Positions 53,532 through 63,122 of a stretch of DNA of 64,000 nucleotides are shown here, piece by piece. Every line of letters starts with the position of its first letter. Position 1 is the stretch's first letter. The notes under the pieces were generated by a model. That model was given only the letters and a program-made list of their open reading frames with translations, searched no databases and was not told the DNA's origin. Position numbers and translations under genes: made by a program. This stretch comes from Pseudomonadota bacterium (GTDB lineage Bacteria; Pseudomonadota; Alphaproteobacteria; Micavibrionales; UBA2020): assembly GCA_021845905.1 (NCBI GenBank), contig JAJZVA010000007.1:1-64000 (forward strand), written 5' to 3'.

Positions 53532-53550
53532 AAAAATGGTGCCAGACGCG
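53532..53550. repeat. attL candidate (imperfect copy of tRNA-Phe 3' end)
   Basis: AAATGGTGCCAGACGCG at 53534-53550 matches 63044-63061 (AAATGGTGCCCAGACGCG) with a single C missing. The match covers the CCA end and acceptor strand of tRNA-Phe. To the right the sequence departs into a hairpin GCGCT/AGCGC. The short, imperfect match keeps confidence moderate. Confidence 0.55.
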
Positions 53551-53611
53551 CTACCTAACCAGCGCAATAACACCATGATTTAAAATGAATATTTCTGTTA
53601 AGTTTTTTGCA

Positions 53612-53630
53612 GTACCCAGATCGGTACCCA
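53612..53630 (+). repeat. paired GTACCCA repeats, left end (putative integrase arm sites)
   Basis: GTACCCA occurs at 53612-53618 and 53624-53630, a 12-bp period. The same pair with the same spacing and orientation occurs beside the integrase gene at 62914-62932. Nothing else in the island explains both. Confidence 0.6.
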
Positions 53631-53697
53631 CCGTCCCGTTTGCTGCACTTTTCTGAACCAGAGGATAGCCCGAGAATAGCCCGAACGGGACAATTTT

Positions 53698-54042
53698 TCA
53701 AGCCGCCGCCATCGCCCCTTGCACGATTTCTTCCATGTTCAATTTTTCCTGTTTGAACAGGGCACGGAAGACAAGATTCAGATTGTGCAGGCTTGGATTG
53801 CCCTTGTTGCTAAACATTTGCATGAGGCTTTTGTCGGGGATACCCGTTTTCTCCGCCAGCTTCTGAAAGCCCAGCGTTGCATTGATATAGTCGCGGATAC
53901 CGGAGCGCCCAATAAATACATCCTCATCATCCCTGCCGAGCATGAGATGGATAAAGCCGTTCACAAGCATAAGCTGGCGAAATTCCTTATCTGCCTTGGC
54001 GCGCTCGATCACAGTTTCCCTGAAACTGCGAGTAATGGGCAT
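53698..54042 (-). CDS. HigA-like antitoxin, helix-turn-helix
   Basis: A 114-residue DNA-binding antitoxin of the addiction-module antidote group. The N-terminal MPITRSFRETVIERAKADKEF and the segment LRDYINAT-like IRDYINATLGFQKLAEKTG followed by PDKSLMQMFSNKGNPSLHNL form the HTH with the family's characteristic GNP. It follows the toxin gene by 84 bp on the same strand, the usual toxin-first order of this class. It would neutralise the toxin and repress the operon. Confidence 0.78.
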   Translation of the reverse strand: MPITRSFRETVIERAKADKEFRQLMLVNGFIHLMLGRDDEDVFIGRSGIRDYINATLGFQKLAEKTGIPDKSLMQMFSNKGNPSLHNLNLVFRALFKQEKLNMEEIVQGAMAAA

Positions 54043-54126
54043 GGCATTTATCCTTTCCTATTCTCTTTAATGGTAATATATATATTACCATTAATCAAGG
54101 GGCATTTAATAACGCATTGATTTTAT

Positions 54127-54441
54127 TTAATTATTTTCCTTATATTCTTGCCAAAGTTCCTTGGCCTTCGCAATATCACGATCTTGGCGGGTCTTTGAGC
54201 CTCCCGCCAGAAGGATAACAAGCTCGTCGCCGTCCTTGCCGAAATAAACGCGAAGCACAGGATTGTGAATACGATGCTCAAACACCCCACCGCCAACGCT
54301 TTTATAATCTCCGAGATTCCCCGCTTCCATGCGGCGTATGGCCTGCACCACTTTATCCGCATGTTGCGCAGACAGGGCGAGAAACCACTTTCTAAAATGG
54401 TTTTTTCCGTTCTCGCTTTCGTATTCGACAACTTCGGTCAT
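54127..54441 (-). CDS. RelE/HigB-superfamily toxin (Gp49-like)
   Basis: A 104-residue toxin of the phage-derived Gp49/HigB group, expected to be a ribosome-dependent mRNA endonuclease. Family pattern: FRKWFLALSAQHADKVVQAIRRMEAGN, then GGGVFEHRI and LRVYFGKDGDELVILLAGG, then SKTRQDRDIAKAKELWQEY. GAGGAT precedes the ATG by about ten bases. It begins only about 45 nt beyond the end of the tracrRNA on the same strand. The pair probably stabilises the island. Confidence 0.8.
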   Translation of the reverse strand: MTEVVEYESENGKNHFRKWFLALSAQHADKVVQAIRRMEAGNLGDYKSVGGGVFEHRIHNPVLRVYFGKDGDELVILLAGGSKTRQDRDIAKAKELWQEYKENN

Positions 54442-54487
54442 GCTGAAATTATCCTCAAATTACGAAGGCAAAATATGATGCGCATGA

Positions 54488-54587
54488 AAATAGGGGATGT
54501 TCCGAAGAACAGAGCCCCACGCGTTTACAAGAAAAACTTGTAACCTTATCATAGCAACATTCCCGACACGGCTATGCTATGTGCGTA
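54488..54587 (-). ncRNA. tracrRNA of the type II-C system
   Basis: On the - strand an anti-repeat runs from 54581 to 54548. Its first 20 nt are identical to the + strand of the CRISPR repeat, so they pair perfectly with a crRNA made from the array's - strand. A 6x6 internal loop follows, then GCTATGAT pairs with the first 8 nt of the repeat (one G-U). After AAGG come a 7-bp hairpin TTACAAG/CTTGTAA (54525-54543) and a second hairpin GGGG...CCCC with a GTTC-TTCG-GAAC tip (54493-54518), then a short T-rich end. A perfect TTGACA stands at 54622-54617 on the - strand with a weak -10 near 54599. Ends are estimates. Confidence 0.88.
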
Positions 54588-54662
54588 AGTCGCATGTTGC
54601 AATCACGGATTGTTTTTGTCAATCTATCATTCAAAAGTTTTTTACACGCAAGGATTTTTATT

Positions 54663-57600
54663 ATGGGATATATTCTGGGGCTTGATGTAGGTATTGCGTC
54701 CACTGGTTTTGCCGGAGTAACGCCCGAAAAACAAAAAATTGATTTCACGGGCGTCCATATTTTTGACTCCGCTGAAAATCCGAAAGATGGTTCTTCTCTC
54801 GCCCTGCCGCGCCGTAAGGCGCGGGGTTTACGGCGCGTTATTCGCCGCCGCGCACAACGTAAAAACAATATCCGCAAGCTGCTTTTAAAATGCGGTTTTA
54901 GCAAACAGGCAGTTGATAGTATTGATTCCTCTCGAACAGAAAATATCTCCGATGTTTGGCAACTGCGCGAAGACGCCTTGAAAAGAAAATTAACCGACTC
55001 GGAATTTGCGCATGTCCTGTTTCATATCGCCAAAAGACGCGGTTTTCAATCAAACAGCAAAAAAGCCGCCGAGAATGACACGGAAGGGAAAAAAGCCCTT
55101 GAAGGCTCCAAGCATCTTCAGGAAAGAATGACTGAAGCTGGCGCAAGAACGATAGGCGCATTTTTAGCAACACAAGACAAGAAAAGAAACGGGCATGGCT
55201 CATACGAAAATTTTGTTGTCCGCAGTCTTTTGCGCGAGGAAGTAAGAGAAATTTTCAGGCAACAGGAAAAATTCGGACAGGATAAGGCTACCCCCGCCCT
55301 GCAAGAAAAATATGAACAAATCGCGTTCACGCAGCGCCCGCTTCAATCCAGTGAAAAACTCGTGGGCTTTTGCTCTCTTGAAGAAAATATAGGTAACAAA
55401 GTAAAACGCGCCCCCAAGTTTTCTTACTCCGCAGAGCTTTTTGTCTTGTGGTCAAAGCTGAATAATCTGCGCATTAAAGAATACGGCGGCAGCGAACGCC
55501 CCTTGACCCAAGATGAAAAAAATCAAGTCGCTGAGCTGGCACATAAAAACAAAGACGTGAAATACAAACAAGTCAGAAAACTTCTCGGCATGACCGATGA
55601 GGAACGCTTTAATATCAGCTATAGAAAGACGGATGACAAAGAGTCGGATTGGGAAAAGATCAGGGATTCCGTGGAAGGCCGTTCCGTATTCATGGCTTTG
55701 AAGGGATATCATGCCCTGAAAGACGCCTTGGGACACAGTGAAACGGACTGGCAAAGATGGATTGGCAAAGATATTGAAAAACTGGACGAGATTGCGCGGG
55801 TTTTATCATTTCACGAAGACAGCGAAGAAATAGAAAAACTGCTTTCGGGCATTGGCGTAAACGCCACAGACAGGCAAGCATTGTCAAAAGTAACAGACTT
55901 TAAAAAGTCTATAGACATTTCAGCAAAAGCGGCACGTAAAATCCTCCCCTTCATGAAACAGGGCATGACGTATGATAAAGCCTGTGAAGCAGCGGGATAT
56001 AGTAAGCAGGAAAACAAGGGACTTCGCTTTGTTCCAAAATTCGATTCAACTCGTAATCCTGTTGTTGACCGCTCTTTGTCTCAAGTCCGAAAAGTTGTTA
56101 ATGCAATCATTCGCAGACATGGCCTGCCGGAAACTATCATTGTTGAAGTTGCAAGCGAACTCGGAAAATCTTTTCAAGACCGCAGAGACCTTGACAAAAT
56201 CAGGGCAAAAAACCAGAAAAACAAAGAAGACGCCGCAAAACACGCGGAAGAAATCTTAGGCCATGAGCCGAATGGCGAGGAACTCCTGAAATATCGCCTG
56301 TGGATGGAGCAAAAAGGATTTTGCATTTATAGCGGCGAGGAAATCAGGCCGGAATTGTTGCGCGATCCTGTCGCAACTCAAATTGACCATATATTGCCTT
56401 ATAGCCGTTCATACGATGACAGCTACATGAACAAAGTTTTGTGCTTTACGGATGAAAACCAGAGAAAAGGCAATAAAACCCCGTATGAATATCTTAAGGG
56501 CACGCAAGCATGGGAAGCGCTGGAAAATAATTTTGCGCGGCAATTGCCCCGCGCCAAAGCCGAACGCCTCTTGATGCAGGATTTTGACGCGGAGAAAGAA
56601 GATAAATGGAAATCCCGCCACTTGAATGATACGCGCTATATCACGCGCCTGCTTAAAAACCATCTTGAAAACAGCCTTGACCTTGGCAAAGGCAACCGTG
56701 TCCAGACCCGCAACGGCGCATTGACGGCACACCTGCGCGGCGCATGGGGTTTCCCCGATAAAAACCGCAGCAATGACAGGCACCATGCGCTTGATGCTAT
56801 CGTTCTGGCCTGTTCAACGCAAAGCATGGTGCAAAAACTGACAAACTGGAATAAATACGAAGCCCGCAAGAAAAATCCAGCTGAAAGGCCGCGCCCGCCT
56901 TTGCCGTGGGAAGGCTTCCGCGAAACGGCCAAGGAAAAGATAGACGGTATATTCGTTAGCCGGATGCCGTACCGGAAAATCACGGGACAGGTGCATGAGG
57001 AAACGATCCGCAGCATACGCCACAATGATGACGGGCAGCGCATAGCCGTGCAAAAAGTGCGTTTGACGGCATTAAAACCCGCCATGCTCGAAAATCTTGT
57101 GGACAAGGACGGGCGCAACGAAAACCTTTATAAAATACTCAAAGCCCAATTGGACGAACACAAGGGCGATCCGCAAAAAGCATTTGCGGAACCCGTCAAA
57201 CTCGTCGGCAAAGGCGGAGAAGAAAAAGCCGCCATCGTCAATTCCGTGCGCATTGTCACAAATGAAAAAAGCGGCGTCGAAGTAAATGAAGGGTTGGCTA
57301 GCAACGGCAACATGATTCGAGTGGATGTATTTAGAAAGGACAGCAAGTATCATCTTGTTCCTATATATGTTCATCACTGTGCCATGACAGCCCTTCCAAA
57401 TCGTGCGATTGTTGCCTTTAAGCCAGAGGATGAATGGACTGATGTGAGCGATGCAGAGTTTCTTTTTAGTCTTTATAAAAATGACTATGTACGGATAAAA
57501 AGCAAAAAAGAAGAAGTTGAAGGATATTATTTTGGAACCCATCGCGGGACTGGGAATATCAATATTCGCGCTCACGATAGAGACCCTTCTTTTGGCAAGG

Positions 57601-57782
57601 GCGGAGACAAAGAGGGGTTGGGAGTAAAAACACTTCTTCTATTTGAAAAATACACCGTGAATTACTTTGGAGAAAAGCACAAGGTGAAGGGGGAAAAACG
57701 TCTTGGCTTGGCGAAATCTGCTCGTGCAAAATCCGGCGCGTCTGTCGCTGAAAAACGCACAGTTGCAACTGGAGAACGATGA
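54663..57782 (+). CDS. cas9: CRISPR-associated endonuclease Cas9, type II-C
   Basis: RNA-guided DNA endonuclease of 1039 residues, in the compact II-C size range. RuvC-I is YILGLDVGIASTG (Asp8). An Arg-rich bridge helix lies at about residues 49-77. RuvC-II is IIVEVASELGKS (Glu495). The HNH domain has QIDHILPYSRS (Asp575, His576) and DENQRKGNKTP (Asn599). RuvC-III is DRHHALDAIVLAC (His708, Asp711). All catalytic residues are present, so both nuclease sites should work. The C-terminal PAM-reading part is divergent. The start at 54663 has AAGGA eight bases upstream; the frame extends 28 codons back into the tracrRNA and is not used. The last 80 bp overlap cas1. Confidence 0.97.
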   Translation: MGYILGLDVGIASTGFAGVTPEKQKIDFTGVHIFDSAENPKDGSSLALPRRKARGLRRVIRRRAQRKNNIRKLLLKCGFSKQAVDSIDSSRTENISDVWQLREDALKRKLTDSEFAHVLFHIAKRRGFQSNSKKAAENDTEGKKALEGSKHLQERMTEAGARTIGAFLATQDKKRNGHGSYENFVVRSLLREEVREIFRQQEKFGQDKATPALQEKYEQIAFTQRPLQSSEKLVGFCSLEENIGNKVKRAPKFSYSAELFVLWSKLNNLRIKEYGGSERPLTQDEKNQVAELAHKNKDVKYKQVRKLLGMTDEERFNISYRKTDDKESDWEKIRDSVEGRSVFMALKGYHALKDALGHSETDWQRWIGKDIEKLDEIARVLSFHEDSEEIEKLLSGIGVNATDRQALSKVTDFKKSIDISAKAARKILPFMKQGMTYDKACEAAGYSKQENKGLRFVPKFDSTRNPVVDRSLSQVRKVVNAIIRRHGLPETIIVEVASELGKSFQDRRDLDKIRAKNQKNKEDAAKHAEEILGHEPNGEELLKYRLWMEQKGFCIYSGEEIRPELLRDPVATQIDHILPYSRSYDDSYMNKVLCFTDENQRKGNKTPYEYLKGTQAWEALENNFARQLPRAKAERLLMQDFDAEKEDKWKSRHLNDTRYITRLLKNHLENSLDLGKGNRVQTRNGALTAHLRGAWGFPDKNRSNDRHHALDAIVLACSTQSMVQKLTNWNKYEARKKNPAERPRPPLPWEGFRETAKEKIDGIFVSRMPYRKITGQVHEETIRSIRHNDDGQRIAVQKVRLTALKPAMLENLVDKDGRNENLYKILKAQLDEHKGDPQKAFAEPVKLVGKGGEEKAAIVNSVRIVTNEKSGVEVNEGLASNGNMIRVDVFRKDSKYHLVPIYVHHCAMTALPNRAIVAFKPEDEWTDVSDAEFLFSLYKNDYVRIKSKKEEVEGYYFGTHRGTGNINIRAHDRDPSFGKGGDKEGLGVKTLLLFEKYTVNYFGEKHKVKGEKRLGLAKSARAKSGASVAEKRTVATGER

Positions 57783-58608
57783 AGGGGTTTTTTCTGTCGC
57801 AGTCGAGGACTTAACCTGCGTCATACTGGAAAGCCATCATATCACTGTCAGCACGGCTTTGCTGGCAAGCTGTCAGGAACAGGGCGTTTGCATCGTCACG
57901 TGTGATTCCGCGCATACCCCGAATGGCGTTTTGCATCCCTTTCATGAACATTCACGGCAAAGCAAGGTTGCTCATTTACAAATCGGCTGGTCAGAACCTT
58001 TCAAAAAACGCTGCTGGCAATCCATTATAAAAACTAAAATAACAGGGCAAGCGGACGTGCTTGAAATATATGGCGACAAAAACGCCGCAAAGGCTCTCCG
58101 CGCCATGCGCCAGCATGTCACGTCCGGCGACGAAAAAAACGTGGAAGCGCAGGCAGCGCGGGAATATTGGCAAAATCTTTTCGGCTCTGATTTCCGCCGT
58201 CATGCAACGGACACTATTAACGGCGCTTTGAACTACGGCTACGCCATCATGCGGGCGTCCATTGCCAGATCGGTTGTAAGTTTTGGGCTGTTGCCCGCTT
58301 TCGGTCTGCACCATGACAGCGATCTCAACGCCTTCAATCTTGCAGATGATGTTATAGAAGTGTTTCGCCCATTCGTGGACAATCAGGTTAAAACAATGCA
58401 ACTGGCGGGCGATCTGTCGCAAAATGAACTGTCAAAAGAAAATCGCCAGAAACTGGCGGGCATTTTGACAACAACCTGCATGTTGTCGCAGGAAGTGCAT
58501 ACGCTGATGAACGCTTCGGACAAAGTTGCGGAAAGGCTGGTTGTCGCTATCGAGAAAAAAGACCCGCAGGAAATGATCTTTCCCGAAATCCAAAAAACCC
58601 TGCTATGA
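57703..58608 (+). CDS. cas1: CRISPR integrase Cas1, type II
   Basis: Metal-dependent integrase that inserts new spacers with Cas2. The start is a TTG at 57703, supported by GAAGGGGG nine bases upstream and by the family N-terminus MAWRNLLVQNPARLSLK; it lies 80 bp inside cas9 in another frame. The product is 301 residues. Expected active-site residues are Glu148 in VEAQAAREYW, His203/His204 in FGLHHDSDLNAFNLADD, and an acidic residue in DDVIEVFRPFVD (215-219). It overlaps the cas2 start by four bases (ATGA). Confidence 0.95.
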   Translation: MAWRNLLVQNPARLSLKNAQLQLENDEGVFSVAVEDLTCVILESHHITVSTALLASCQEQGVCIVTCDSAHTPNGVLHPFHEHSRQSKVAHLQIGWSEPFKKRCWQSIIKTKITGQADVLEIYGDKNAAKALRAMRQHVTSGDEKNVEAQAAREYWQNLFGSDFRRHATDTINGALNYGYAIMRASIARSVVSFGLLPAFGLHHDSDLNAFNLADDVIEVFRPFVDNQVKTMQLAGDLSQNELSKENRQKLAGILTTTCMLSQEVHTLMNASDKVAERLVVAIEKKDPQEMIFPEIQKTLL

Positions 58609-58934
58609 CGGCGGCACAGGATAGATTTATGTGGCTTTTTGTGTTCTTTGATCTCCCCGTCAAATCAAAAGAGGAACGTCATACAGCAACGCGCTTTCGG
58701 AATTTTTTGCTGAAGGACGGCTATATGATGATTCAGTTTTCGGTCTATGCACGTGTCTGCAACGGTCAAGAAAGAGTTGACAAACACCTTTCAAGATTGC
58801 ATAATTCAATACCCTCAAAAGGCAGCGTCAGGGCGATTCAAATCACTGACAAGCAATATGAGCGCATGAAGATTCTGATCGGAAAACAGAAGATTCGCGA
58901 AAAAACAAAGACCGAACAGCTCCTTTTGTTTTGA
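58605..58934 (+). CDS. cas2: CRISPR-associated protein Cas2
   Basis: Small ferredoxin-fold partner of Cas1, 109 residues. The first strand MWLFVFFDLPVKSKEER carries the conserved Asp (residue 16), and RFRNFLLKDGYMMIQFSVYARVC is typical. The stop codon lies inside the stem of the terminator that follows. There is no csn2 or cas4 gene, which with the Cas9 size defines subtype II-C. Confidence 0.94.
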   Translation: MTAAQDRFMWLFVFFDLPVKSKEERHTATRFRNFLLKDGYMMIQFSVYARVCNGQERVDKHLSRLHNSIPSKGSVRAIQITDKQYERMKILIGKQKIREKTKTEQLLLF

Positions 58935-58950
58935 ACTGCTCGGTCTTTTT
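58908..58950. terminator. bidirectional terminator between cas2 and the array
   Basis: GACCGA-A-CAG (58910-58919) pairs with CTG-C-TCGGTC (58936-58945). Five T follow on +, and an A-rich run precedes it on + (T-rich on the - strand). It can stop the rightward cas transcript and the leftward crRNA transcript. Confidence 0.82.
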
Positions 58951-58981
58951 CTAAGTAATATCAAATCATTACAGTGTATGT

Positions 58982-60601
58982 ATCATAGCATAGCCGTGTC
59001 GGGGGGGAAGCTATGACATATCAACGATACCCGCATAATATTGTATAATCATAGCATAGCCGTGTCGGGGGGGAAGCTATGACATTCCAGACAAGACAGG
59101 TGCAGCCACTGACATCATAGCATAGCCGTGTCGGGGGGGAAGCTATGACCCCTCCGACAAGCGGGGATTCCAGCTTGGAATCATAGCATAGCCGTGTCGG
59201 GGGGGAAGCTATGACGCACCACAGGAAATGCACGTACACACGACGATCATAGCATAGCCGTGTCGGGGGGGAAGCTATGACCCGTTGGCATGGTGTACGG
59301 CCTCATATCCAATCATAGCATAGCCGTGTCGGGGGGGAAGCTATGACTTCCGTTCTCAATGCTCTATTTTACAAGCAATCATAGCATAGCCGTGTCGGGG
59401 GGGAAGCTATGACTGTCGGGTTCGCTTTATCAATACCTCCCCTATCATAGCATAGCCGTGTCGGGGGGGAAGCTATGACCATTCGACATAGGCCTGCACG
59501 CCTCCCTGCATCATAGCATAGCCGTGTCGGGGGGGAAGCTATGACACCAGTTCACCTTGCAGGATATGGCACCAGATCATAGCATAGCCGTGTCGGGGGG
59601 GAAGCTATGACATTTCAGGCAGAATATGATAGAATGTTTCAATCATAGCATAGCCGTGTCGGGGGGGAAGCTATGACGTAGAGCTTGCTGCGATTGAAGT
59701 AGTACCTATCATAGCATAGCCGTGTCGGGGGGGAAGCTATGACGCATCACAGGAACCGCCATGCTGTTGCCGGATCATAGCATAGCCGTGTCGGGGGGGA
59801 AGCTATGACGCTTTAGCCATTTTAGTTTCCTTCGATAGAATCATAGCATAGCCGTGTCGGGGGGGAAGCTATGACGTACGGCTAACCGTATTGACACGAG
59901 TTCCGATCATAGCATAGCCGTGTCGGGGGGGAAGCTATGACTAGCGGAGTCGGCGATCTTGACATCGTTGAATCATAGCATAGCCGTGTCGGGGGGGAAG
60001 CTATGACCTCTGTAAGCCTTTGGCACTAATAAGTGTAATCATAGCATAGCCGTGTCGGGGGGGAAGCTATGACTACACGGAAAAGGATCTGGTTGTGCAG
60101 ATTATCATAGCATAGCCGTGTCGGGGGGGAAGCTATGACCAGCGTCTGCATTTGCGTCCAGTGGAGCGAATCATAGCATAGCCGTGTCGGGGGGGAAGCT
60201 ATGACGATCATTTGCTACGCCTGTCGGCATTTGAAATCATAGCATAGCCGTGTCGGGGGGGAAGCTATGACGCAACGCCCCGAATTCCTTGCTGGCAATT
60301 CATCATAGCATAGCCGTGTCGGGGGGGAAGCTATGACGTGTTTTGATTGACTTGCCGTTGTAGGTCTATCATAGCATAGCCGTGTCGGGGGGGAAGCTAT
60401 GACATCCATCAGGCCGAAGGTCAGAAGAAATTGATCATAGCATAGCCGTGTCGGGGGGGAAGCTATGACAAAGCGGGGAGGGGTCTTTTCAAAAAATCGA
60501 TCATAGCATAGCCGTGTCGGGGGGGAAGCTATGACCTCTCGACATTCGCCTCGATCAGTTCCTTGATCATAGCATAGCCGTGTCGGGGGCGAAGCTATGA
60601 T
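58982..60601 (-). CRISPR. CRISPR array, 25 repeats and 24 spacers
   Basis: Repeats of 36 bp recur every 66 bp, so spacers are 30 bp. On + each begins ATCATAGCATAGCCGTGTCG, then has seven G in a row, and ends AAGCTATGAC. The last copy (60566-60601) is degenerate, with a C inside the G-run and a final T. Pairing with the tracrRNA shows that crRNAs come from the - strand: repeat 5' end GTCATAGC, 3' end TGCTATGAT. That 3' end resembles an extended -10 (TGnTATAAT), so each repeat may start its own transcript about 6-7 nt into the next spacer, leaving roughly 24 nt of guide. Spacers are all different. Confidence 0.98.
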
Positions 60602-60662
60602 GCACAAATGCTCCTGAATCTGAATGACCGGACAGTTTGACACCACCGACACCCTCACGCCG

Positions 60663-61088
60663 TCAGATTGAATGTTTCTCATCATGAACTTTTTCTGTTT
60701 GTTTCTTTCTCGCCCTTGCCGCCCCGCTACGCTTGCCAAGTTCTGACATGGTTTGCCGGATCATTTCTTTTTGAAATTCTTCGTCACTCATGGATTCATA
60801 TGGATCGGAAGCGTCTGTTTCGTCATCGTCAACTGTTGTTTCAACCGTTGCGGAGCCGTTCGACGGCGATTTCTTTTCCGGTTTTTTGCCGCTTTTGACA
60901 ACCGCATAAACGGCATACACTGCCAACCCGAGAACGCCGACAAAAAGCCAAGCCGGATTAATAGCTGTCTTCAATGCTTCCAGAAACGCGGGCTGTTTTT
61001 CAGTTTGCTGAATAGAGCCACTTATACTGTTATTAAAGCCGCCGCCTGTGCTGCCGTTCATACCGTTACCAATTCCATTATATATCAT
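60663..61088 (-). CDS. single-helix membrane protein of the island, unknown
   Basis: A 141-residue protein with a Gly/Asn-rich N-terminus (MIYNGIGNGMNGSTGGG), one hydrophobic helix at about residues 46-65 (PAWLFVGVLGLAVYAVYAVV), an acidic Ser/Asp-rich stretch, and a C-terminal basic helical tail (GKRSGAARARKKQTEKV). I recognise no family. It lies between the degenerate end of the CRISPR array and the AlpA-like gene, on the same strand, and its transcript would run into the array. Confidence 0.55.
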   Translation of the reverse strand: MIYNGIGNGMNGSTGGGFNNSISGSIQQTEKQPAFLEALKTAINPAWLFVGVLGLAVYAVYAVVKSGKKPEKKSPSNGSATVETTVDDDETDASDPYESMSDEEFQKEMIRQTMSELGKRSGAARARKKQTEKVHDEKHSI

Positions 61089-61106
61089 GATACTTCCCTT
61101 TCCTGA

Positions 61107-61328
61107 TTAACCGTTAAAATCTGCGGGGCGGCTTTCGTGAATACGCGCTGTCATCCATGCGTTAATTTCACTTTCAAGCCAACCGACAGAACGCGCCCCC
61201 AAACTCACGGGACGAGGGAATATGCCGTTTGAAATATTCAAATAGATCGTGCTGCGGCTTAAGCCTGTGCGAGCTTTTACGTCCGCCAGTCTTAGGAACC
61301 GTTCTTTGTTTGTGATGTCTGTGTTCAT
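61107..61328 (-). CDS. AlpA-family regulator / excisionase-like protein
   Basis: A 73-residue winged-helix protein. ERFLRLADVKARTGLSRSTIYLNISNGIFPRPVSLG is split here as RLADVKARTGLSRSTIY and ISNGIFPRPVSLG, followed by VGWLESEINAWM, the Phage_AlpA signature. Such proteins control integrase expression or assist excision. The ATG at 61328 has AGGAAGGA four bases upstream; the frame extends further without a better start. It is next to the integrase and the AACCGTT cluster, a likely target. Confidence 0.85.
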   Translation of the reverse strand: MNTDITNKERFLRLADVKARTGLSRSTIYLNISNGIFPRPVSLGARSVGWLESEINAWMTARIHESRPADFNG

Positions 61329-61469
61329 AGCGTCCTTCCTGATCTTGTTAATCGCAAATTTATTTTGCCCTTTCATCATGAAAGAAAATGTAGCTTATTC
61401 ACACGGGTCAAAACGCAGGTCAAAACGCATTCCAAGCGCTACCCCAAGAACTGATATAATGATTTAATG

Positions 61470-61610
61470 AACCGTTGCCGAACCGTTCGTAACCGTTGAA
61501 ATAGCGCATTTGTAGCGGTTCGCTTAACCGTTGACCTAAGCCGTTGAACCGTTAATTTAACCGTTCCTGTAGCCGTTCCCCGAACGGTTCCAACGGTTAA
61601 TTGAACCGTT
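61470..61610. repeat. cluster of AACCGTT heptamers
   Basis: AACCGTT occurs at 61470, 61481, 61491, 61526, 61547, 61559 and 61604, and its complement AACGGTT at 61583 and 61592, with near-matches (AGCCGTT, GCGGTT) between. Nine exact copies in 141 bp, in the gap between alpA and the integrase gene, suggest a multi-site binding region. Confidence 0.8.
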
Positions 61611-61623
61611 CATTTTTTATTTT

Positions 61624-62883
61624 TTACGCTTTTTTGCGGAATTTTCCGGCAATAATTTTTCCATCCGCCGCAATCTTATCAATATAGTCCGCCCATTCCT
61701 GCATCATCTTCCGGCGCTGGGGCAAATACTCGGCGCGGTTATAGGCGGCACGGATTTTGTTGCGCTCGGAGTGCGCCAGTTGCCTCTCGATAACATCCGG
61801 CGGATACCCCTGCTCGTTCAATGTCGTGGACGCAAGGGCACGGAATCCATGGCCTACCATTTTCCCTTCATAGCCCATGCGTTTAATCACCATGTTTATC
61901 GTGTTCTCACTCATAAGCATATGTTTCCGGTGCTGTTGCGGCGGAAACAGAAATTCGCGGTGTCCGCTTATTTTGTGCAGTTCCTTGAACAATTCAATGG
62001 CCTGCTTGGAAAGTGGAACAATATGCTCGTCGCGCATTTTTGTGATTTCCGCCGGAAGCCGCCATTCCTTGGCCTCAAGGTCAACGTCTTTCCATGTCGA
62101 TTTCCGCAGTTCTCCGGTGCGGACAAACGTCAACAGCATAAGTCGGATAGCAAGCTTATTTTGCAATGTGGTTTTCGCCTCATCCAGCCGTTGCAGAAAT
62201 TCCGGAAGTTCCTTGGCCGTGATTGCCGGATAATTTTTGGCCTTATGCGGTTTCAGGGCGCGTCCATCCCGCAAAGGATAGGCGGGATTAATCGCCATGC
62301 GCTCGGTCACAATGGCATAGTTGAAAATGGAGCTGGCCGTTTGCAAGACGCGGTGCGAAACTTCCGTCCCGCCGCGCCGTTTCAGGTGCCCGTCCCCGCG
62401 TGTAATTTTCTGGGTTTCAACCTTCCTGATCGTATTCAGCAGTTCCAGCGTGGAAATGTCGGCTATCGGACGTTTGCCCAGTTCCGCGATAAGATGGATT
62501 TCAATGCGCCGCCAGAGCCTGTCCGCATGTTCCGGCGTCCATTTGGACTTGTTGTTCTCAAACCATTCCTTGGCTACCCCCTCAAAGGTGTTTTCCGCAT
62601 TGAAAACGGCGCGGCGCTTTTCTTCCTGCTTGGCCGCGCCGGGGTCTATGCCGTTGGCAAGGGCTTTACGTGCCTCATGGCGCTTGTCGCGTGCCTCGGC
62701 CAGCGAAATTTCAGGGTAAGCGCCCAGCGCCAGCATCTTTTCTTTGCCAAGGACGAAATACCGGAATCGCCAGAACTTCCTGCCTTTGGGCGTCACCTGC
62801 AAATAAAGCCCGTCCCCGTCCGCAAGGCGGTACATTTTGGCCTTGGGCTTGGCGCTCTTGATCTTTAATTCCGTTAATTGCAT
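61624..62883 (-). CDS. int: tyrosine site-specific integrase
   Basis: A 419-residue integrase of the P4/DUF4102 group that uses tRNA genes as targets. The N-terminal arm-binding domain has LADGDGLYLQVTPKGRKFWRFRY. The catalytic domain has Arg in LTFVRTGELRKSTWKDVD, His-x-x-Arg in HGFRALASTTLNEQG, a second His in QLAHSERNKIRAAYNRAEY and the Tyr nucleophile in that last block. AGGAGA lies five bases before the ATG. It starts 164 bp from the 3' end of tRNA-Phe, the typical geometry. It appears intact. Confidence 0.94.
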   Translation of the reverse strand: MQLTELKIKSAKPKAKMYRLADGDGLYLQVTPKGRKFWRFRYFVLGKEKMLALGAYPEISLAEARDKRHEARKALANGIDPGAAKQEEKRRAVFNAENTFEGVAKEWFENNKSKWTPEHADRLWRRIEIHLIAELGKRPIADISTLELLNTIRKVETQKITRGDGHLKRRGGTEVSHRVLQTASSIFNYAIVTERMAINPAYPLRDGRALKPHKAKNYPAITAKELPEFLQRLDEAKTTLQNKLAIRLMLLTFVRTGELRKSTWKDVDLEAKEWRLPAEITKMRDEHIVPLSKQAIELFKELHKISGHREFLFPPQQHRKHMLMSENTINMVIKRMGYEGKMVGHGFRALASTTLNEQGYPPDVIERQLAHSERNKIRAAYNRAEYLPQRRKMMQEWADYIDKIAADGKIIAGKFRKKA

Positions 62884-62932
62884 GGGTATCTCCTAGCTGG
62901 GTACTTTTATCCGGTACCCAGCATGGTACCCA
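62883..62932. repeat. GGTACCCA repeats, right end (putative integrase arm sites)
   Basis: GGTACCCA at 62913-62920 and 62925-62932 form a direct pair with a 12-bp period, like the pair at the left end of the island. TGGGTAC (62898-62904) and TGGGTAT (62883-62889) are inverted copies nearer the integrase start. They overlap the integrase leader, so bound integrase could also repress its own gene. Confidence 0.65.
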
Positions 62933-63042
62933 GCTTCGTGCCGGATGTCACGGAATCCTTGCGGAAGCCATAGGACGCTAAAATGGCTGTTTTCTTAGGT
63001 TTTTATGATGCTTTTGGATTTTGCAGGATGTCTTTGGAGGAA

Positions 63043-63061
63043 GAAATGGTGCCCAGACGCG
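63043..63061. repeat. attR candidate within the 3' end of tRNA-Phe
   Basis: This is the stretch matched by the attL candidate. It covers the CCA end and the acceptor strand of the tRNA gene plus a few bases beyond, and the tRNA stays intact. Confidence 0.55.
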
Positions 63062-63122
63062 GATTTGAACCACGGACACGATGATTTTCAGTCATCTGCT
63101 CTACCAACTGAGCTATCTGGGC
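63047..63122 (-). tRNA. tRNA-Phe (GAA)
   Basis: A 76-nt gene with encoded CCA. The acceptor GCCCAGA pairs perfectly with TCTGGGC. The D-arm contains AGCTCAGTTGGTAGAGC, the anticodon loop is CTGAAAA with GAA, and the T-arm reads GTGGTTCAAATCCGC. The 3' end points towards the integrase, as expected for an integration target. Confidence 0.97.

Follow-up and report, generated by a model that had tools for sequence, protein, structure and literature searches.

The question raised by this locus is whether a short stretch lying between a toxin gene and a cas9 gene, and read away from the latter, is the tracrRNA gene of an intact CRISPR-Cas9 system and, if so, whether the RNA is of an unusual kind. 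Judged from its sequence and from comparison with relatives, the region at 54487-54587 on the - strand is almost certainly the tracrRNA gene of an intact type II-C system. The window, that is, the whole stretch of 64,000 nucleotides analysed here, carries beside it the following genes and array.

54663..57782, + strand: cas9, 1039 amino acids, with HNH and RuvC domains (TIGR01865, E 9e-222; PF13395; PF18541)
57703..58608, + strand: cas1 of type II (cas1_NMENI; TIGR03639, E 2e-89), the position of its start uncertain, since its frame and the end of cas9 overlap
58605..58934, + strand: cas2 (TIGR01573, PF09827)
58982..60601, - strand (the crRNA strand): CRISPR array of 25 repeats of 36 nt and 24 spacers of 30 nt

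All of these are intact, and RNase III is encoded in the same genome. A search for csn2, cas4 or any further cas gene over 54663-60601 and among the tested neighbours found none; with the order cas9-cas1-cas2, a Cas9 of II-C size and no csn2 or cas4, the locus is of type II-C. The best solved-structure relatives of the Cas9 are small Cas9s of about 1,080 amino acids, and among its best sequence matches are NmeCas9-like structures. The repeat, written on the crRNA strand, is GTCATAGCTTCCCCCCCGACACGGCTATGCTATGAT. The direction of the array follows from the strand of the tracrRNA, and its transcription is accordingly predicted to run against that of the cas operon. At the end away from cas2 the last repeat (60567-60601) is degenerate, with GGGGGCG and a final T; the array is therefore oldest where its - strand transcript would begin, and new spacers are probably added next to cas2. 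Searches for spacer targets with the whole array against phages (blastn) and with three spacer cores against viral_contigs returned no match, and the window itself gave only a chance-like match with 9 mismatches, so that neither a spacer target nor a PAM was found in the phage, viral_contigs and window searches.

The tracrRNA gene and its predicted parts are as follows.

54487..54587, - strand: tracrRNA gene, comprising the anti-repeat, two hairpins and a T-rich end; both ends predicted and approximate
54562..54581, - strand: upper 20 nt of the anti-repeat, CATAGCATAGCCGTGTCGGG, identical to the + strand copies of the repeat; its partner is positions 15-34 of the crRNA repeat
54548..54555, - strand: lower 8-bp stem of the anti-repeat, GCTATGAT, pairing with GTCATAGC of the repeat, the end pair being G-U
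54525..54543, - strand: nexus-like hairpin, TTACAAG/CTTGTAA, with a stem that covaries in relatives
54493..54518, - strand: 3' hairpin, GGGGCTCTGTTC TTCG GAACATCCCC, presumed intrinsic terminator, with GGGG...CCCC around TGTTC/GAACA
54492-54487, - strand: TATTTT, the T-rich end after the 3' hairpin
54617..54622, - strand: -35 element TTGACA of the tracrRNA promoter, TTGAC being invariant in 12 of 12 aligned sequences
54594..54599, - strand: -10-like CAACAT

The nucleotides at 54581-54562 of the - strand are those of the + strand repeats and can thus pair with a repeat read from the - strand. Between the two helices lies an internal loop of six against six (TTCCCC in the repeat, AATGTT in the tracrRNA, with one possible C-G pair within it), and the folding that the earlier note had proposed as a check gives a duplex of 28 pairs in a 20-bp upper and an 8-bp lower helix, at -53.2 kcal/mol. 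The anatomy claimed in that note, from the 20-nt identity through the loop and lower stem to the two hairpins, is all present on the - strand. A covariance model, R1, recovers the tracrRNA in its own genome with an E value of 1.7e-15, the sequence itself being part of the model; the structure in R1 consists only of a self-hairpin of the anti-repeat, and R1 served mainly as a sequence model. An Rfam scan of the locus gave nothing above threshold, and a search of the tracrRNA against plasmids gave no match.

A second and better anti-repeat elsewhere in the genome, the case that the earlier note had set against its own reading, was sought in the whole assembly (2.42 Mb, 98.8% complete) and none was found. 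With up to three mismatches allowed, the array holds 25 copies of the 20-mer and a single further one lies on the other strand, at 54581-54562, and the reversed 20-mer, searched in the same assembly as a control, has no matches. Because the 20-mer is found only in the array and here while the reversed control finds nothing, a chance origin of the anti-repeat is excluded.

A genome scan, together with a search through 142 genomes from the order, yielded relatives with Cas9s at 96, 81, 76 and 54-60% identity and one from Halothiobacillus at 36%. Nearly all have the same arrangement upstream of cas9 on the - strand, each with a repeat of its own. Pairing of each repeat with its own anti-repeat beats swapped pairing in 13 systems (sum -652.4, against a shuffled mean of -506.8 with sd 20.8; 0 of 20,000 shuffles as good), and the own-pair advantage is again matched in 0/20,000 shuffles when 10 less redundant systems are taken. 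Covariation with relatives, which had been named as a check, is strong: counted pair by pair in 11 systems, pairing holds in 95.1% of cells and both partners have changed in 11 pairs (0/500 shuffles), a signal destroyed by sliding the repeat against its partner. In the same count the lower 8-bp stem is paired in 100% of cells, with a compensatory change in one pair, and four of the six counted pairs of the nexus hairpin covary in relatives. The upper duplex measures 17-24 bp in all relatives, and the 20 bp that had been singled out as distinctive are normal for the clade. The type II-C locus of Micavibrio sp. UBA5572 (L008/G070) and those of other relatives in the order, whose Cas9s are 57-59% identical to that of the window, share its layout, -35 element, matched repeat and anti-repeat, nexus and terminator hairpins; they differ from it in a stronger, uninterrupted terminator hairpin and in a tracrRNA without higB beside it. 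Across 135 genomes of the order R1 gives 14 strong matches, 11 of them directly upstream of a Cas9 hit; of the rest, one (G083) stands at a contig end where the sequence begins to read into the start of cas9, and two are orphans. R1 was built from most of the 14 sequences that it later found, and the count thus demonstrates linkage to Cas9, not independent detection.

The perfect TTGACA that had been reported at the right distance upstream is confirmed, with a 17-nt spacer to CAACAT, a weak -10 that agrees with TATAAT at 3 of 6 positions when scored against the E. coli consensus. The 3' end is less clear-cut: the second hairpin and the T-rich end are there, the latter as TATTTT, but the T-run is short and the stem interrupted, and because of these two features the automatic scan called no terminator. 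Past this end, and not part of the tracrRNA, lies a toxin-antitoxin pair. On the far side of the array are the features of a mobile element.

54127..54441, - strand: gene of a HigB/Gp49-like toxin of the RelE/ParE superfamily (TIGR02683, E 5e-25; PF05973), downstream of the tracrRNA
53698..54042, - strand: gene of a HigA-like antitoxin, a weak match below cut-off (TIGR02684, E 1e-4)
61107-61379: AlpA, between the array and tRNA-Phe
61624-62883: integrase, between the array and tRNA-Phe
63122-63047: tRNA-Phe, on the far side of the integrase from the array

This neighbourhood offers the best-surviving alternative, which would add to the tracrRNA role and not replace it: if termination is weak, the tracrRNA promoter might also transcribe higBA, all in one transcription unit. 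The gene higB starts 45-50 nt past the end of the tracrRNA on the same strand, the interrupted 3' hairpin was not called as a strong terminator, and the scan gave no - strand sigma-70-like site for higB, although such a scan can miss alphaproteobacterial promoters. Against this, the window genome and its 96% relative are alone in having higB next to the tracrRNA, and many genomes carry higB homologues at places remote from CRISPR; read-through is on balance unlikely. The fuller proposal, that the tracrRNA promoter drives the HigB-like pair by read-through and that the pair guards the CRISPR-Cas9 island, is slightly more doubtful again; if it were true, a cell in which the tracrRNA unit was lost or shut down would have its balance of toxin and antitoxin upset. 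The reading into a toxin gene, which had been considered distinctive, is a local matter, seen at two of the tracrRNA loci. How the neighbours came together is suggested by a pseudo-copy of the tRNA-Phe 3' end at about 53534, by a relative (G133) that matches the window, after a gap, from exactly 53534 onward, by the integrase and AlpA, and by G132, a genome with no Cas9 hit in which the same tRNA has a related integrase beside it. These features point to the CRISPR system and the toxin-antitoxin pair as probably the cargo of one integrative element at tRNA-Phe, spanning 53534-63122.

In the type II-A natural single-guide RNA tracr-L, an upstream segment mimics the repeat and carries a guide to the cas9 promoter. 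A longer form of the window RNA, repressing cas9 as does tracr-L of Streptococcus pyogenes, is improbable here. The RNA is indeed divergent from cas9, and by eye ATGTTGC of the lower anti-repeat is a possible partner for GCAACAT (54600-54594); this last heptamer is explained by its overlap with the -10 CAACAT (54599-54594), however, and its pairing, again by eye, is incompletely kept in relatives. Between cas9 and the anti-repeat there is no repeat-like piece beyond chance (228 of 300 shuffles are as good), and a tracr-L-type upstream segment was rejected for the window for want of a repeat mimic. A different element was noticed in one relative (L017, G092), where GTCATAGCTTCCTGTC on the - strand between cas9 and tracrRNA matches the 5' end of that system's own repeat at 15 of 16 nt (0/300 shuffles) and is preceded by a guide-like stretch. 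It is possibly a regulatory crRNA-like element; no clear target was found in the 6-kb locus.

The opposite strand was weighed too, with the anti-repeat used on the + strand and crRNA and tracrRNA both read towards cas9. Repeat and anti-repeat are complementary either way, and a promoter-like site, TTTACA-17-TATCAT, lies on the + strand inside the tracrRNA gene at 54524-54552. The - strand reading is nevertheless fixed because the conserved hairpins and the promoter fit that strand only: relatives keep the covarying nexus and a terminator-like hairpin downstream of the anti-repeat, as well as TTGAC upstream at promoter spacing, and the + strand site is kept in none but the nearest of them. Given that the arrays of II-C systems are known to run against their cas operons (PMC3936727), + strand use is very improbable, and the earlier placement of the tracrRNA on the - strand, divergent from cas9, was right, in agreement with both the covariation and the unique anti-repeat. 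A conserved cas9 promoter within the tracrRNA gene was likewise rejected, the site being present in the nearest relatives only; if the site were active, the leader of the cas9 mRNA would include a segment that resembles the repeat and is complementary to the tracrRNA. That the element is a decayed repeat or functionless relic, such as the solitary repeat and orphan tracrRNAs found elsewhere in the order, is also very improbable, in that cas genes, array and tracrRNA are intact here and coevolving, and the Cas9 differs from its 96% relative mostly at silent sites (96% amino-acid against about 88.5% DNA identity), which suggests purifying selection.

As a tracrRNA gene, the region would be transcribed from the TTGACA/CAACAT promoter, starting at about 54587 and running away from cas9, and the RNA, some 95-105 nt long, would end with the 54518-54493 hairpin. 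With its 5' part it would pair with the repeat of each crRNA, the crRNAs coming from the same (-) strand of the array, while the duplex would attach to Cas9 through the nexus and 3' hairpins; RNase III may shorten the long paired region, and Cas9 with crRNA and tracrRNA would then cut DNA matching the spacer. These steps, from transcription, RNA ends and termination to processing and cleavage, are predicted from the sequence.

Defluviimonas belongs to the Alphaproteobacteria, and the 36-nt repeat of Neisseria meningitidis ends in an extended -10, TGCTACAAT. By its description, the II-C locus of Defluviimonas sp. 20V17 resembles that of the window: it has a small Cas9 (DfCas9, 1079 amino acids), many repeats with 30-bp spacers, a tracrRNA upstream of the cas genes and an array opposite to cas, small-RNA sequencing having shown that array direction and tracrRNA products of 72-83 nt (PMC7708072). 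A toxin-antitoxin neighbour, which the window has, goes unmentioned in the passages drawn on here (PMC7708072). The N. meningitidis system shares with the window the order cas9-cas1-cas2 and a 36-nt repeat ending in an extended -10, and its array runs against the cas operon (PMC3936727), as predicted for the window. The system differs in the position of the tracrRNA, which in the window is upstream of and divergent from cas9. The window repeat ends in TGCTATGAT, a TGnTAt-like extended -10 kept in 13 of 13 systems, which would agree with the promoters inside repeats that have been reported for Neisseria (cited in PMC5006608). The position of the tracrRNA varies among II-C subgroups (PMC3936727); it is upstream of cas9 in Riemerella (PMC5006608) and upstream of the cas genes in P. 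pneumotropica (PMC7708072). The distinctiveness that had been claimed for the divergent position is not supported, an upstream tracrRNA and an opposite array both being known in II-C (PMC3936727, PMC7708072).

The two orphans among the strong matches lie in genomes without a Cas9 hit. One, in G058 (contig C36, loci L078/L071, 841-987), is an intact tracrRNA that has a promoter as well as hairpins for nexus and terminator. It is immediately preceded, on the same strand, by the 5' part of a repeat, TCATAGCTTCCCTTCTGA, which stands behind an apparent tRNA 3' end at which ARAGORN called no tRNA; folded together, TCATAGCTTCCCTTCTGA and the orphan tracrRNA resemble a single-guide RNA. This orphan could be a relic of a cas-gene deletion. 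The second (L076, G080:C39, 237-470) has a degenerate repeat upstream on the same strand (237-271) and stands just before an ORF (504-1049) that by eye is ECF sigma factor-like. A third genome (G055), a single contig with no Cas9 or strong tracrRNA hit, carries a solitary perfect 36-nt repeat near a tRNA-Gly (L077, G055:C1:427000-433000, 2938-2973), identical to that of locus L018. Intact tracrRNAs beside repeat fragments without a detected Cas9 may have been left behind by deletions or may be guide-like RNAs that stand on their own, and these orphans, with the solitary repeat, are a more open lead than the tracrRNA of the window.

The window tracrRNA itself is well formed and a further example of a known II-C kind, with no unusual mechanism shown, and general knowledge of tracrRNAs is unchanged by it. 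What it adds is a complete guide RNA, backed by comparison, for a clade of compact Cas9s of about 1,040 amino acids in uncultured Micavibrio-like Alphaproteobacteria, for which a matched repeat and tracrRNA can now be written down for a bench test.
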